Source: Verrucomicrobiaceae bacterium
Lineage (GTDB): Bacteria > Verrucomicrobiota > Verrucomicrobiia > Verrucomicrobiales > Verrucomicrobiaceae
NCBI GenBank assembly: GCA_019694165.1
Contig: JAIBCL010000001.1
Span: 1 to 64,000, forward strand
Direction: 5' to 3'
Length of the DNA stretch: 64,000 nucleotides
Part shown: positions 94 to 12,707 of the stretch, in pieces
How positions within the stretch are numbered: position 1 is the first letter of the stretch
Layout: each line of letters begins with the position of its first letter
The notes under the pieces: generated by a model
The model's database searches: none
The model's input: only the letters and a program-made list of their open reading frames with translations
What the model was told of the DNA's origin: nothing
Position numbers and translations under genes: made by a program

Positions 94-124
94 CTTTTGC
101 TGTCCACGAAAACGAAGAAGGCTC

Positions 125-270
125 ACCGAGAGTCGGCGCGAGCTGGGGGAGTCTCCCCGAACCCGCACCGAGAGTCGGCGCGACCCGGGGGAGTCTCCCC
201 AAACCCGCGCCAAGAGTCGGCGCGGGTCGCCGGACATTCCCTTTCCCAGCGCCGAGAGTCTGTACAGGCT
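125..270. repeat. 42-bp imperfect tandem repeat, three units plus a partial fourth
   Basis: Units start at 125, 167, 209 and 251, exactly 42 bp apart. Each begins with (A/G)CC(G/A)AGAGTCGGCGCG or a variant. Units 1 and 2 carry the palindrome GGGGGAGTCTCCCC, which is lost in units 3 and 4. The period is divisible by three, so the repeat stays open in several frames on both strands. No frame has a convincing start or protein composition, so I treat it as non-coding. Confidence 0.8.
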
Positions 271-2925: not shown

Positions 2926-3281
2926 TGGCCGATGGCGTCGAAACCCTCCGTGAACCTCCCGGCCACATTGTGGAATCTCTCATAAGCAAGTGCCTCCAAT
3001 TTCCCGCTGCCGGTGATCGGCGTGCCGTCCTCGGCGCGCAAATCAAACATCTCCTGCCGTCCGCCACTCGAAGCCGCGCCGTCGAGTGCGAGAAGAAGTG
3101 TGTAGAAGGAATCGGTGAGCACTCCGCCGACAATTCGTCACACGGTTCGCGTCTGCTCATCGGACAACTGGAGAGCTGCAATGTCCGCTGCAACCTGTGA
3201 ACCAGAACCCGCCGTGAAGCAGCCAGCCAGCAAGTCGGCCCGCTCCTTCGCGCAACAATCAATGAACTGGTAAGGTGTCAT
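2926..3281 (-). pseudogene. Broken small gene in third integron cassette (in-frame TGA)
   Basis: An ATG at 3281 opens [20 protein letters not shown], which reads for 47 codons to a TGA at 3138-3140. It continues in the same frame with [20 protein letters not shown] and then [20 protein letters not shown], up to YERFHN. The two halves read as one small protein of about 110-120 residues. After about residue 105 the frame runs on without a stop into DNA opposite the collagen-like gene, so the natural 3' end and the cassette's own attC seem to be lost. The left boundary given is approximate. I do not know the family. The gene is placed as the third cassette, just after attC-like site 3325-3418. 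Confidence 0.65.
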
Positions 3282-3324
3282 AGCGCGTGATGTGGCCGAA
3301 ACCTTATGGTTGCGGTTCAGACTG

Positions 3325-3418
3325 CGTCAACGTCTCGGATCAGGCGGCGGCGAGCGCAGGACGTTGCTGACACGACAAATAGCCTTCGAGCCGTTGCCTG
3401 CATCCGTTTTGTTCGGCC
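3325..3418 (-). other. attC-like recombination site between cassettes 2 and 3
   Basis: On the - strand the 94-bp site starts GGCCGAACAAAACGG and ends GAGACGTTGACG. Its two ends fold back on each other: GATGCAGGCAACGGC pairs with GCCGCCGCCTGATC, leaving one unpaired base, as in integron attC sites. It shares CGAACAA, CAACGGCTCG, TGTCG and GCGCTCGCCG in the same order with site 3937-4029. The 3' core, GTTGACG, departs from the usual GTTRRRY. Confidence 0.72.
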
Positions 3419-3461
3419 TTGGTCTCGGGGTAATTGTGATCATGTGCAAAACTGGGGGCGG

Positions 3462-3920
3462 CTATCCGCCAAAAAGCCGTGCGAAGAACCCCTTCTTACG
3501 TGGTGGTGGCTGCGGACCAACGTCCAGACCGAGACCCGCTCCGTAAGCAGCAATTCCGTCCTGTGGGCCATTCTTCAGTCTCTTGATGACTCGCTGGGTG
3601 GGCCACACGATGCTTCCGTCTGTAAGCTTTAGAATAATGTTGATTTCGTTCTCGGGGTCTGCCTCGTCCGCCACCCACGAGCCGCCCTTCGAGCGCCGCA
3701 AAACCTCGCCAACATAGCCTCCGAGAGCAAACATCCGCGAACCAAACTGCTTACCAAGCAACCCTCGCGGCTTAGGTGCTCCGTTCTCGCTTACGTCGTC
3801 GAAGAAGCGATCAATCTCCCAGAGGCTCGCAGGTGAGAAGTCTGCACTGTATCCAGAGGACTTCAAACACTGAGCAATCCAATCAGCTCCTGTGACTATG
3901 TCTTCTGTGATCAATGGCAT
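3462..3920 (-). CDS. Unknown protein, integron cassette 2
   Basis: This is a 152-residue soluble protein with no signal peptide or membrane span. The middle reads GKQFGSRMFALGGYVGEVLR then GGSWV, and the second half contains INIILKLTDGSIVWPTQRVIK. The C-terminus is a Pro/Lys/Phe-rich tail, PPPRKKGFFARLFGG, which could be a basic amphipathic end. I cannot assign a family; the fold may be close to other small proteins of unknown function. It is bounded by attC-like sites at 3325-3418 and 3937-4029 and transcribed away from the intI remnant, as cassette genes are. Its codon use is visibly less GC-biased than the flanking genes. Confidence 0.82.
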   Translation of the reverse strand: MPLITEDIVTGADWIAQCLKSSGYSADFSPASLWEIDRFFDDVSENGAPKPRGLLGKQFGSRMFALGGYVGEVLRRSKGGSWVADEADPENEINIILKLTDGSIVWPTQRVIKRLKNGPQDGIAAYGAGLGLDVGPQPPPRKKGFFARLFGG

Positions 3921-3936
3921 GGCGAGCGACTTGGTA

Positions 3937-4029
3937 GGTTGAGCGTCTAAGCTGTGGCGACGGCGAGCGCAAGACTCCGCTCATGCGACAGACTGCTACG
4001 AGCCGTTGTCACCAGCGTCTTGTTCGCCC
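3937..4029 (-). other. attC-like recombination site between cassettes 1 and 2
   Basis: On the - strand the 93-bp site runs from GGGCGAACAAGACGCTGG to TTAGACGCTCAACC. GGTGACAACGGC near one end pairs imperfectly with GCCGTCGCCAC near the other, with an unpaired base. Its first core, GGGCGAAC, is the exact complement of GTTCGCCC, where cassette 1 begins (4580-4587). This is what is expected when a cassette has been excised and inserted as a circle by an integron integrase. Confidence 0.75.
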
Positions 4030-4059
4030 TCGTTTGTCCGTGGGTCTTTCGTAGCGGAG

Positions 4060-4560
4060 TCATAGGTCAGTAATCTGAGCACCTGCGGCCCGGCATCTCT
4101 CGGTCATGAAGACCAGCGCGGCCTCGGGAATCTGCGATGCTGGAACAATCGAATACATGGCACCTCGAAAGCCAAGCAAAATGAGGTGTCGGTAACGTCG
4201 AAGCTCGGCAATGGCTGTCCAAGCGAGGGACACCGATCCCAATGAACTCCGAGCCTCAATGGTCTCGTCCGTCAGGCGATAAACTGCTCTGCCGTCAATG
4301 ATGGCATCGAGCTTGGAAAGCATCTTGCGACGGCCAGTCAGGTAAACCCCGAACATAATGACCACGACTAGCGCAAGGACCGTCAAACACACAATCGACA
4401 CCGTGCTCAATCCACCAAGACGAGAGTCGAAGTAGGCTGCCCCCAATACAATCGCCGCAGCAATCAGCAGTCTCCAGTGGTGACGGCCTCGGAAAAACCA
4501 TGCGTGCCAAGCTGTCTTCATCATGGCTGAATCAACTTGGACTTCGAACTCGTGTGGCAT
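4060..4560 (-). CDS. YcxB-like membrane protein, integron cassette 1
   Basis: The protein has 166 residues. Two hydrophobic segments (about 30-47 and 51-72) are followed by a basic loop with GRRKMLSKLDAIIDG. A soluble C-terminal part contains YRLTDETIEARSSLGSVSLA then WTAIAELRRYRHLILL. This layout matches the YcxB-like family: two membrane spans and a C-terminal domain of unknown function, probably facing the cytoplasm. The gene fills the first cassette, between the boundary at 4586/4587 and attC-like site 3937-4029. The start at 4560 lies 27 bases inside the cassette. It may depend on an outside promoter in the intI leader. Confidence 0.8.
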   Translation of the reverse strand: MPHEFEVQVDSAMMKTAWHAWFFRGRHHWRLLIAAAIVLGAAYFDSRLGGLSTVSIVCLTVLALVVVIMFGVYLTGRRKMLSKLDAIIDGRAVYRLTDETIEARSSLGSVSLAWTAIAELRRYRHLILLGFRGAMYSIVPASQIPEAALVFMTERCRAAGAQITDL

Positions 4561-4579
4561 GTCCGGCGGCTACTTGGTT

Positions 4580-4752
4580 GGGCGAACAATTGGATCATCA
4601 ACAAGAATGTTGTTTGATGCGCAACGCTATCTGGCACAAGAATGTTGGAAAAAAACGGCTTGTTGCGGGCCTGGCCGAGGTTGTAGCCGGCGATTGCGCG
4701 CAAAGCAACATGATCGTTGAGCCGTGCGCAAATGCGTTGATGAAAGGGGTGC
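4580..4752 (-). other. Likely attI and leader of the relic integron
   Basis: The core GTTCGCCC (- strand, 4587-4580) marks where the first cassette joins the platform. The 165 bases between it and the intI remnant would hold attI and, in intact integrons, the Pc promoter driving the cassettes. I see no strong -35/-10 pair and no second integrase-binding site that I can defend, so only the core and the position support the call. Confidence 0.5.
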
Positions 4753-4890
4753 TTGATTATCTCCAAGACAGAGCCAACCCTCGAACAGCGCATCATCCAG
4801 ACGATGCGGCTGCGCCACTACTCCCGCCAGACGGAGCAGGGCCATGTGATGTGGTACAAACAGTTCGTGCGCTTTCACTCCAAGGTGAGC
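4753..4890 (+). pseudogene. intI: Integron integrase (intI), 5' fragment
   Basis: From a TTG at 4753 the frame gives about 45 residues including HYSRQTEQGHVMWYKQF, followed by VRFHSK. This is the N-terminal SAM-like, DNA-binding segment of integron tyrosine recombinases (pattern R-x-x-HYS-x-RTEQ-x-Y-x-x-W-x-x-x-F-x-x-FH). After about codon 45 the similarity stops. No catalytic domain (Arg, His-x-x-Arg, Tyr) follows in any frame before the next gene, so the enzyme is dead here. It points away from the cassette array, the normal integron layout. Confidence 0.75.
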
Positions 4891-4903
4891 GGGAGGCTGA
4901 TGC

Positions 4904-5068
4904 GTTCAGCCCGCCGCTTTGAAAATCCGGTCAACATGGACGGACGACAGGCTCACACGCAAACCAGGCCGCTGGAACCGTCATCCCGATGACGCGGAGG
5001 ATGACGGAGCCGTGGTGATCACCATCGCGCAGAAGTTTTTTGAGCCGTTTTTCCGGCCGCATGTCTGA
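4904..5068 (+). pseudogene. 3' remnant of an unrecognised gene
   Basis: In a frame different from the intI fragment, about 55 codons are open up to a TGA at 5066-5068. The last part reads DDAEDDGAVVITIAQKFF and then EPFFRPHV, which looks like a real C-terminus with GC-rich third positions. No start codon precedes it, and the open frame begins next to the decayed intI. It may be the tail of a gene cut when the integron region rearranged. The next gene starts 31 bases later on the same strand. Confidence 0.35.
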
Positions 5069-5098
5069 GGCATCACAACCAACAACCCGCCGCTCGCC

Positions 5099-5626
5099 AT
5101 GCCGCATACCGCCACCACCGTCGTCCGCGGTCCGTCCATTGAAGACTTGGTCCGCTCCATCTGCCGGGCAGTGCAGAAAGCCGACGTGGGACTGCTCGCC
5201 TCATTCAGGCCGTCCGGCCACTTTCCGCTGCTGTGGGCGGGGCCGGTGCGTGTGACGAGCGACTGCCATCTGGTGCGGGCGCAGGGATTGGAACTCGCGC
5301 CTGTGATCGAGGCGGTGCACCGGGCGCCGGACGTGGTGTGGGCATTCCCCGACGGCGACGGCGCGGAGGCGCGGCTCTACGGCCGCATGCGGCTGCGCGC
5401 CGAACATGCGCCCGAACTCGACGACTACGAACTGCCGCTGGAACTGACCACCACCATCGTCTGCGTGAGCCTGGAGATTCCCACGCACGGCATCTCTCTC
5501 ATGGCCCGCCTGCCCGATCCTCTGGACCGCGGCACGCAGCCGGCGATGGCGCTGATGCCCGGCGGACGCTCAATGCAGGAAGCCGTGGCAGCCTGCCTGA
5601 CGACGGCGGATTGGGAGCGCCGGTGA
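5099..5626 (+). CDS. Unknown protein, first gene of a coupled set
   Basis: A 175-residue soluble protein with no signal peptide or membrane segment. It contains FRPSGHFPLLWAGPVRVTSD and ends in GRSMQEAVAACLTTADWERR. The composition is mixed alpha/beta and I recognise no catalytic motif. The gene ends in GTGA, shared with the GTG start of the next gene, and that gene ends in ATGA shared with the third. The three are therefore translationally coupled and probably act together. Family and role are unknown to me. Confidence 0.7.
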   Translation: MPHTATTVVRGPSIEDLVRSICRAVQKADVGLLASFRPSGHFPLLWAGPVRVTSDCHLVRAQGLELAPVIEAVHRAPDVVWAFPDGDGAEARLYGRMRLRAEHAPELDDYELPLELTTTIVCVSLEIPTHGISLMARLPDPLDRGTQPAMALMPGGRSMQEAVAACLTTADWERR

Positions 5627-10127: not shown

Positions 10128-12707
10128 TCAATTCACATACATGATCTCGTTCGCGAACAGCAGCGCCTGCGCGTAGCGCTCCCAGGCGGAGAGCGGTTGG
10201 CGTGAGACGACCTCGCCTTGATTGTGAACGGGAGCCTGCGTGCCGGCGCGACCTCCTTCGGGGCGACGCTGAGGCTGGCCGCGACGTGAGTCGGCGATGA
10301 TCTCGGTGGTGGTGTCTTCCAACGCTTCGCTGACGAAGTCCATGCCGACGTTGGCCTCGGCGGCTTGCGGCATGCGTTGGAAAACAATGCGATACAACGC
10401 CTCGACCCGACCGACGTCGTCTCTTGCTTCCGTGAACTCGCGGCGCGCAACCATCGCGCGGGCGACGTCGATGATCATGGGGCTGTTCATCAGAAAGAGC
10501 GCTTGCTGCGGCACGACGGTGCTGGCGCGCTTGCTGTTGGTCATATCGGGATCGGGGAAGTCGAACTGCTGCATGAGTTCGGGCAGATTGCCGCGATCGA
10601 CGTAACCATAGACGCTGCGGCGATACGAATACGGTTCGTCGGTGAGATTGATCGGTTTGCCGCCGCGCTGCGGATCGAGCTTGCCGCTGAAGACGAGCAA
10701 CGAGTCGCGCATGGATTCGAAGTCGAGCTTGCGCAGGCTCGCGTGCCAGAGCAGGCGGTTGTGCGGATCGCGTTTTGCGTAGTCGGCGTTGTCGTCACCG
10801 GACTGCTGGTAGGTCGCGGACATCACGATCTCGCGGATGATCGCCTTCTGTGACCAACCCTTCGCCATGAACTCGGACGCGAGCCAGTCGAGCAGCTCGG
10901 GATGTGAAGGCGCTTCGGCTTGCACACCGAGATTGTCAGGCGTGGGAACAAAACCTTCGCCGAACAAGTGCATCCAAATGCGGTTCACTTGCACGCGTGC
11001 GGTCATCGGATTCGACTTGCTGGCGATGGCCTGCGCGAGTTCGAGTCTGCCGCTGCCTTCTTTGAAGACGGGCCGATCGTTGTCCGAGAGGATTTCGAGG
11101 AAGCGACGCGGCACGCCGACGGCATTCCTGCTCACCTCGGCCTGACCCCGCACGAAGACGGGCGAGTTCTTCGGCGCGGACGAGTCGATCATCGCCATTG
11201 CGCGTGCGGGCGCGGCGGGATGCGAGATCTCGAGTTCGTTGATTTCATCGAGTTTGAAGGGAGCGATCTGTCGCATGTTGCGTCCGAACTGAGTGAGTGC
11301 GGCGGTGAGCTTCTCGGTGTTCAAGGTCGCGCCCGGAATCAAGGCGAGCGGCTTCTCCAACAACTCGGCGACAGCGGGATCAAAGCCCGGCACGCTGTTG
11401 GTCGATGCGCGTCGCTTGGCGGCGAAGTAAGCTTCAGCCTGTGACTCCACCCGCTTGAATGCTGCTGCATAGATCGCGGCCACATTTTCCATCGACTTCG
11501 GAGCCTTGCCTTTGAACTCGGCGGCGAGCACGGCATTCCAGCCGTAAGTGGTGGCGCTGCCGGGATTGCTGGCGACCTCCGCCGCATAGCTCGCGCCATT
11601 GGTCGCGAGATCATCAGCGCTTCTCGCGCGGAACAGCAGCCACGGTCCCCACACCGCATCGCTCGGTGACATGCGCGGCGTGATGGAGCTGATGACACGC
11701 AGCTCTTTCTGCAACTGCTCGCGCGACTTCATGCTCATCATCTCGTTCGCTTGCTCGCGTGTCATGCCGCGTCCGCCCGTGTTGAGTCGCAGCATGTAAC
11801 TGGCGGCATCCTGGCGGAAGCTGGCGTTGATATCCGCGATCGTCTGAAAATAGATCGTCGCGTTCTCGTCCTCGAGCTTCGCGAGTTTCGCCTGATAATC
11901 CGCGAACAAGTTCGCGTCCTTCGACATCGCGATGCGTGGTCGTTCCTCGGGTTCCAGGCTGGAGGCAAAGATGCCGTGCAACGAGTAGTAGTCCTCCGTG
12001 GGCACGGGATCGAACTTGTGATCGTGGCAGCGCGAGCACGCGACGGTGAGTCCGAGGAATGCCTTCGTCACCGTGTCGATGCGGTCGTTGATGACATCGT
12101 TATTGTTTTGAAAACGCTCGCCCACCGTGAGAAAGCCAAGCGCGGCGAGCACCGACGGATTGTCCTTCCCCTGCGGCAGCCGATCCGCCGCGAGCTGCTC
12201 GATGATGAACTGGTCGTAAGGCTTGTCGTCGTTGTAGCAGTTGATCACGTAGTCGCGATACGCCCAGGCATATGGATAACGATAACCATCGCGCGTGGTC
12301 AGCGTCTGCTGCCCCGCGGTGTCCGAGTAGCGCGCCGTGTCCAGCCAATGCCGCCCCCAACGCTCGCCAAAGTGCGGCGACTTCAGCAGCCGATCGACCA
12401 CCTTCGCGAACGCCTCCGGCGACTTGTCCGCAAGGAAGTCACGCAACTCATCCGTCGTCGGCGGCAGACCGATGAGATCAAACGTGACGCGTCGCAGCAG
12501 CGTCTCCTTTGTCGCTGGTCGCGCTGGTTTCATGCCTTGGGCATCGAGCGCCTTGCGAATGAAGTGATCGATCGCATTCGAGTTCGCCGGAACCTCGGGA
12601 CGCACGACGGGCTTGAAGGCGAAGTGATCGCGATCAACCGCATCCGCTGCTGGAAGCTGGAGGACTGCGATAAGCGATAGAGCGACTGTGATGAAATGGA
12701 GCTTCAT
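10128..12707 (-). CDS. DUF1549/DUF1553 (PSCyt2-PSD1) secreted protein
   Basis: The 859-residue protein begins with a signal peptide ending near LQLPAADA. Residues about 40-260 are the DUF1549 (PSCyt2) domain: [38 protein letters not shown] and [12 protein letters not shown], which holds a CxxCH motif (residues about 219-223). Residues about 555-800 form DUF1553 (PSD1), with [18 protein letters not shown]. Such proteins are abundant in Planctomycetes and Verrucomicrobia, usually paired with DUF1501 and sulfatases; their exact activity is not established. The N-terminal PSCyt1 domain is absent. The start overlaps the ORF6N gene stop by 4 bases. The last 50 residues are Arg/Gln-rich and less conserved-looking. 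Confidence 0.9.

Follow-up and report, generated by a model that had tools for sequence, protein, structure and literature searches.

The window analyzed here, the first 64,000 nucleotides of contig C22 of a Verrucomicrobiaceae genome (7.8 Mb, 66 contigs), almost certainly carries what is left of a chromosomal integron belonging to the short IntI type of this family: the head, two cassettes and part of a third are still there, and the rest has been deleted. An N-terminal stub of the integrase gene lies on the + strand (4753-4900); an attI region (4587-4752) and the cassettes lie on the - strand, and the cassettes are directed away from the stub. The initial annotation had described a fossil integron with a divergent intI relic of this kind, and both the homology of the attI-intI region to an intact integron, on contig C26 of genome G034, and a blind search for attC sites uphold it.

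The stub corresponds to residues 1-49 of a short-type integron integrase of ~340 residues. The catalytic domain is gone, as had been proposed for the catalytic half, and so is the part of the gene encoding the IntI-specific additional domain (patch III); no intact intI with catalytic residues remains at the array. A comparison with the G034 IntI revealed nothing significant of the remainder of the integrase within the 64-kb window. In NCBIfam and Pfam profile searches with the translated fragment, the integron integrases TIGR02249 (20.4 bits, E=2.7e-4) and PRK15417 were the top NCBIfam matches, PF13495 scored 27.2 bits (E=5.4e-6), and no XerC or XerD model matched. The integron-integrase profiles thus ranked above those of XerC, XerD and phage integrases, in agreement with the IntI hallmark previously noticed in the fragment at 4753. 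The closest proteins were short-type IntI without an N-terminal extension, with the G034 protein on top (59% over 41 residues; 53% identity across residues 3-49). Derivation of the stub from the IntI encoded on contig C38 of the same genome was rejected, as the stub belongs to the short type. The stub is short, its HMM scores are modest, and its identity as IntI rests on its position and on the homology of the head at the DNA level. That shortness, and the fact that PF13495 is not restricted to integron integrases, might be taken to mean that the fragment comes from a phage integrase or one of Xer type, with no special tie to integrons, and that the repeats are not attC. We give this practically no credence: the integron-integrase profiles came out on top, the genome's own tyrosine recombinases matched the stub only at E values of at least 2.9, and it is refuted by the attC sites that the blind search recovered and by the alignment of the attI-intI region.

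The stretch from 4577 to 4859, which spans the junction, attI and codons 1-36 of intI, aligns with the G034 attI-intI region at 65% identity (284 nt, E=2.5e-31). It is thus a genuine integron head, not merely a fragment that happens to lie nearby. This alignment and the junction place attI between the divergent intI and the first cassette, with the crossover G at 4587 (- strand), the cassette starting with TTCGCCC at 4586, and ACAAGAATGTTG (+ strand) occurring twice, at 4601-4612 and 4636-4647. The layout drawn in the initial annotation was thus correct, but attI, with its junction and both repeat copies, had been overlooked. The G034 integron is an intact one of the short type. It shares with the window a homologous attI and intI 5′ region as well as the attC type (at least 10 sites), and differs in having a complete IntI (C26:29371-30384, 338 aa) and a longer array. 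No syntenic site, empty or intact, was found in one same-genus genome, G001, where the flanks lack conservation: a neighboring gene has a 31% homologue, but the surrounding genes are unrelated.

The homology of the head also bears on the idea that the array is an off-target CALIN (in IntegronFinder, PMC9024848, a group of attC sites with no integron integrase), in which the C38 IntI inserted cassettes at a genomic attG and the nearby intI fragment is coincidental. Insertion of this kind is a documented source of integrase-less arrays (PMC8618304), and the genome does possess an intact IntI. Nevertheless, we consider this origin very improbable, as the sequence from the junction to the fragment is homologous to a true attI-intI head (chance E=2.5e-31) and the fragment is divergent and stands at the distance proper for intI. 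A sigma-70 consensus scan of 4400-5150 gave no cassette promoter (Pc), the promoter rules of this phylum being outside the scan. The notion that stubs are retained as carriers of Pc found no support, because broken intI genes that retain just the C-terminus are also common and the N-terminus adjoins attI anyway.

The two spacers between the cassette genes, previously given as 93-94 bp, are both attC sites, with lengths of 93 and 95 bp. A repeat search paired them at 72%, and they match ~24 other places in the genome at 81-96%. We used a covariance model, R1, made from 22 attC sites elsewhere in the genome with the window's own two excluded, which describes the attC fold with an extrahelical G. 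Searching the 64-kb window, this blind model could have rejected the sites; it accepted exactly two, both on the - strand, and its next match had E=1.5. The attC of cassette 2 (3324-3418, 95 bp) is of class A, with an intact AAC/GTT core (96.0 bits, E=3.1e-26), and that of cassette 1 (3937-4029, 93 bp) is of class B (68.7 bits, E=5.1e-18). The latter has R'' GGGCGAAC and R' GCTCAACC, in which GTT is changed to GCT; the R' triplet at the boundary of cassettes 1 and 2 is thus GCT, and GTT is present in 18 of 23 scored sites. The model is supported by five pairs changed on both sides, and shifting the partners by 1-3 columns abolished the pairing. For the two sites in the window, the + strand, which is the cassettes' bottom strand, folds as an attC hairpin and the - strand does not. 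The fold energies were not distinctive in comparison with shuffled sequences and were therefore given no weight.

Across the genome, R1 identified 27 strong attC sites, namely 25 besides the window's two, in arrays on C11, C56, C22:180-182 kb, C46 and C34 and singly on C14. The draft state of the assembly calls for caution, since contigs break at attC sites and heads that resemble one another, and several of the arrays stop at contig ends. A lone weak attC-like match (C20:207840-207933; 32.5 bits, E=5e-5) lies distant from the arrays. A second attC class with a GCTGGTGGC/GCCACAGC arm was seen at C22:179538-179630, C56:188423-188510, C14:43337-43429 and 3937-4029 of the window; it often stands at the end of an array, and two of its occurrences have lost a proper R'' box. 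Two other repeats were noticed on C22: a 42-bp tandem repeat of 2.4 copies (CACCGAGAGTCGGCGCGACCCGGGGGAGTCTCCCCAAACCCG) near the contig start (window 124-224), and a dispersed 156-bp repeat, 86% identical, at 2119-2274 of the window and C22:188858-189010.

Of the three cassettes that had been postulated, only cassette 1 (3944-4586, - strand) is whole. Its first seven bases, TTCGCCC, at the 4587/4586 junction, are the exact complement (7/7) of its own R'' GGGCGAA. The same 7/7 complementarity is found in most internal cassettes of this genome, as expected for cassettes inserted as circles. Its gene (4060-4560) encodes a 166-aa protein with a weak YcxB/bacterial PH-domain match (E=5e-4, short of the Pfam cut-off) and is probably still expressed. 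Cassette 2 (3331-3943, - strand), likewise bounded by attC, has a decayed 5′ end, CTCAACC, which agrees with the complement of its own R'' at 4/7 positions. Its gene (3462-3920) encodes a 152-aa protein that is distant kin of a DUF3806-annotated protein, and a homologue in G213 (L231) is flanked by two attC sites. Cassette 3 is a truncated remnant (2926-3330, - strand) that has lost its 3′ end and attC; R1 detected no attC downstream of it in the window, and it has no complementary boxes. While the small genes at 4060-4560 and 3462-3920 are open as first described, the one at 2926-3281 is a pseudogene interrupted by an in-frame TGA (3138-3140). The remnant abuts, tail to tail, a collagen-like gene with a GPPGPQ repeat on the opposite strand (2340-2912). 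A similar collagen-like coding stretch (C14:42729-43081) lies beside the C14 attC, possibly by mere low-complexity similarity.

The genome contains one complete integron integrase, of 480 aa, at C38:247064-248503 (match 247064-248002, 395 bits). It is of a long type, with an extra N-terminal region of ~150 residues common to many Verrucomicrobia, and its matches among named records are Verrucomicrobiaceae and Prosthecobacter MAGs. The long and short types are 47% identical, and both head one attC type. Four near-identical long-type attI heads (97.8-99.6%) are followed by different cassettes and retain different lengths of the intI 5′ region, the one on C38 (C38:248188-248598) alone being complete. 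Relative to this reference, the second head on C22 (C22:183052-183462) is 98.1% identical with ~105 intI codons left, that on C11 (C11:11534-11781) is 99.2% identical with ~54 codons, and that on C56 (C56:191982-192115) is 97.8% identical with ~13 codons; in all three, the identity stops at the attI-cassette junction. The C56 stub looks as if it continues into an IS3-family-like element. C-terminal relics of the short-type IntI occur at C38:246428-246724, behind the long-type IntI, and at C11:~11997-12050, behind the stub, and the older, short type thus has remains at three loci in this genome. The C38 and C11 relics differ at 7/51 positions, over a short compared stretch, and the corresponding heads at 2/248 (p=8e-5), which suggests that the long-type heads are of more recent origin than the relics of the short type. 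Between C38 and the second C22 head, attI appeared better conserved than the stub (0/110 vs 11/290 mismatches, p=0.04), which is only suggestive, and the C38-C11 and G141 comparisons gave no significant difference. Inspection by eye disclosed no common breakpoint motif of the copied heads.

In the preferred reading of the window as the remnant of a short-type integron, the rest of the integrase and everything past part of cassette 3 have been lost by deletion, and the integrase may have decayed once an IntI of the long type had taken its place in this genome. The remaining cassettes would now be stable, with at most low-rate excision in trans by the C38 IntI. The initial annotation went further and called the array frozen, a claim we do not retain. 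With an intact integrase still encoded elsewhere in this genome, on C38, the relic need not be locked. A related long-type IntI also stands directly at the head of attC sites of this type in another Verrucomicrobiaceae MAG (L169/L267, apparently one 58,147-bp contig), and action in trans is therefore possible. Given that integrase-less arrays, including CALINs, can be mobilized in trans (PMC12444791), freezing is not established.

One could go to the other extreme and regard the array as a live satellite of the C38 integron, whose IntI would act in trans with cassette turnover at the window's attI. The attC consensus common to the genome's arrays, the intact cassette 1, the presence of attI and the trans action on CALINs stated in PMC12444791 would all suit such a state. 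We nonetheless judge it improbable: the window attI differs from the C38 attI, with which it gave no alignment among the genome's own heads; the boundaries of cassettes 2 and 3 have decayed, as expected without turnover; and the attC of cassette 1 carries the GCT triplet. From its sequence, cassette 1 probably has reduced mobility because this mutation affects the attC cleavage triplet.

Similar attC sites were found in 60/68 Verrucomicrobiaceae genomes, and IntI (E<=1e-50) in 116/289 genomes of the order, in samples that hold many fragmented MAGs and in which absence counts are lower bounds. Among the family arrays retrieved, intI N-terminal stubs head 14 arrays in 10 genomes, ~7 loci have a complete integrase, and ~30 arrays show none within 4 kb. 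The initial annotation had noted that integrons of this phylum are rarely described as relics. In Verrucomicrobiaceae relics are not rare: stubs and other broken forms of intI, as well as arrays without an integrase, are frequent, and the window relic is one case of this common pattern.

Head copies also occur within other genomes: G141 (L265, L266; 92.5% over 572 bp), G034 (L145, L276; 96.3% over 814 bp) and Bin_29_9 (L166, L181; 90% over 319 bp). The G141 pair has stop codons in common and was therefore copied after inactivation. These copies, like the long-type heads with varied stub lengths on C11, C22:183 kb and C56, raise the question of whether the window's stub head arrived as a copied segment (intI 5′ end, attI and cassettes) and did not arise by local decay. 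We think this unlikely, though worth keeping in mind, as neither the own-genome stretches examined nor a protein search of the genome contained a second short-type head. A broader reading, which we offer tentatively and rate a little higher, is that in Verrucomicrobiaceae copies of integron heads are placed elsewhere in the chromosome and form satellite arrays that can share one integrase in trans. The copied heads would consist of attI and a variable intI 5′ piece, sometimes with cassettes, and several satellites could exist per genome; the window would then be an old satellite, or the displaced head of a replaced integrase type.

Taken alone, the relic is ordinary, since the decay of integrases is among the best-known facts on chromosomal integrons. 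In 2008, pseudogenes made up one third of intI genes (Nemergut et al. 2008, PMC2426708); an active integrase carries a cost and is quickly lost in culture (PMC3510236); and Verrucomicrobiota are listed among the phyla with integrons (PMC8618304). The relic in the window accordingly belongs to a known kind. Of greater interest are the stub-attI heads that recur, a by-product of this analysis; as far as our partial literature search extends, they have not been described. Integrons of this phylum are little described in the literature searched, yet nearly every genome of the family has one common attC type. Two questions thereby become testable: does a single integrase act in trans on many arrays, and by what route do copies of integron heads reach new loci?

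The consulted portions of Nemergut et al. (2008) make no mention of Verrucomicrobia or of multi-locus stub-plus-attI heads; they do report comparable cases, namely a pseudogene of one clade with a functional intI of another clade in a single genome, and a near-identical intragenomic pair of functional and pseudogene intI. With at least two attC sites and the nearest complete intI on another contig, the window also resembles CALINs, which have been proposed to be degraded integrons (PMC9024848). Unlike these, it retains attI and the intI 5′ stub, and one can therefore still see that it came from a complete integron that decayed (or from a copied head). The inactivated integrons of Xanthomonas (PMC12444791) are similar in that intI was lost repeatedly per lineage through stops, frameshifts and large deletions, in that the arrays persist, and in that further CALINs exist at separate loci. 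They differ in having a single ancestral site beside ilvD, whereas here there are several heads, at different loci and of two IntI types.
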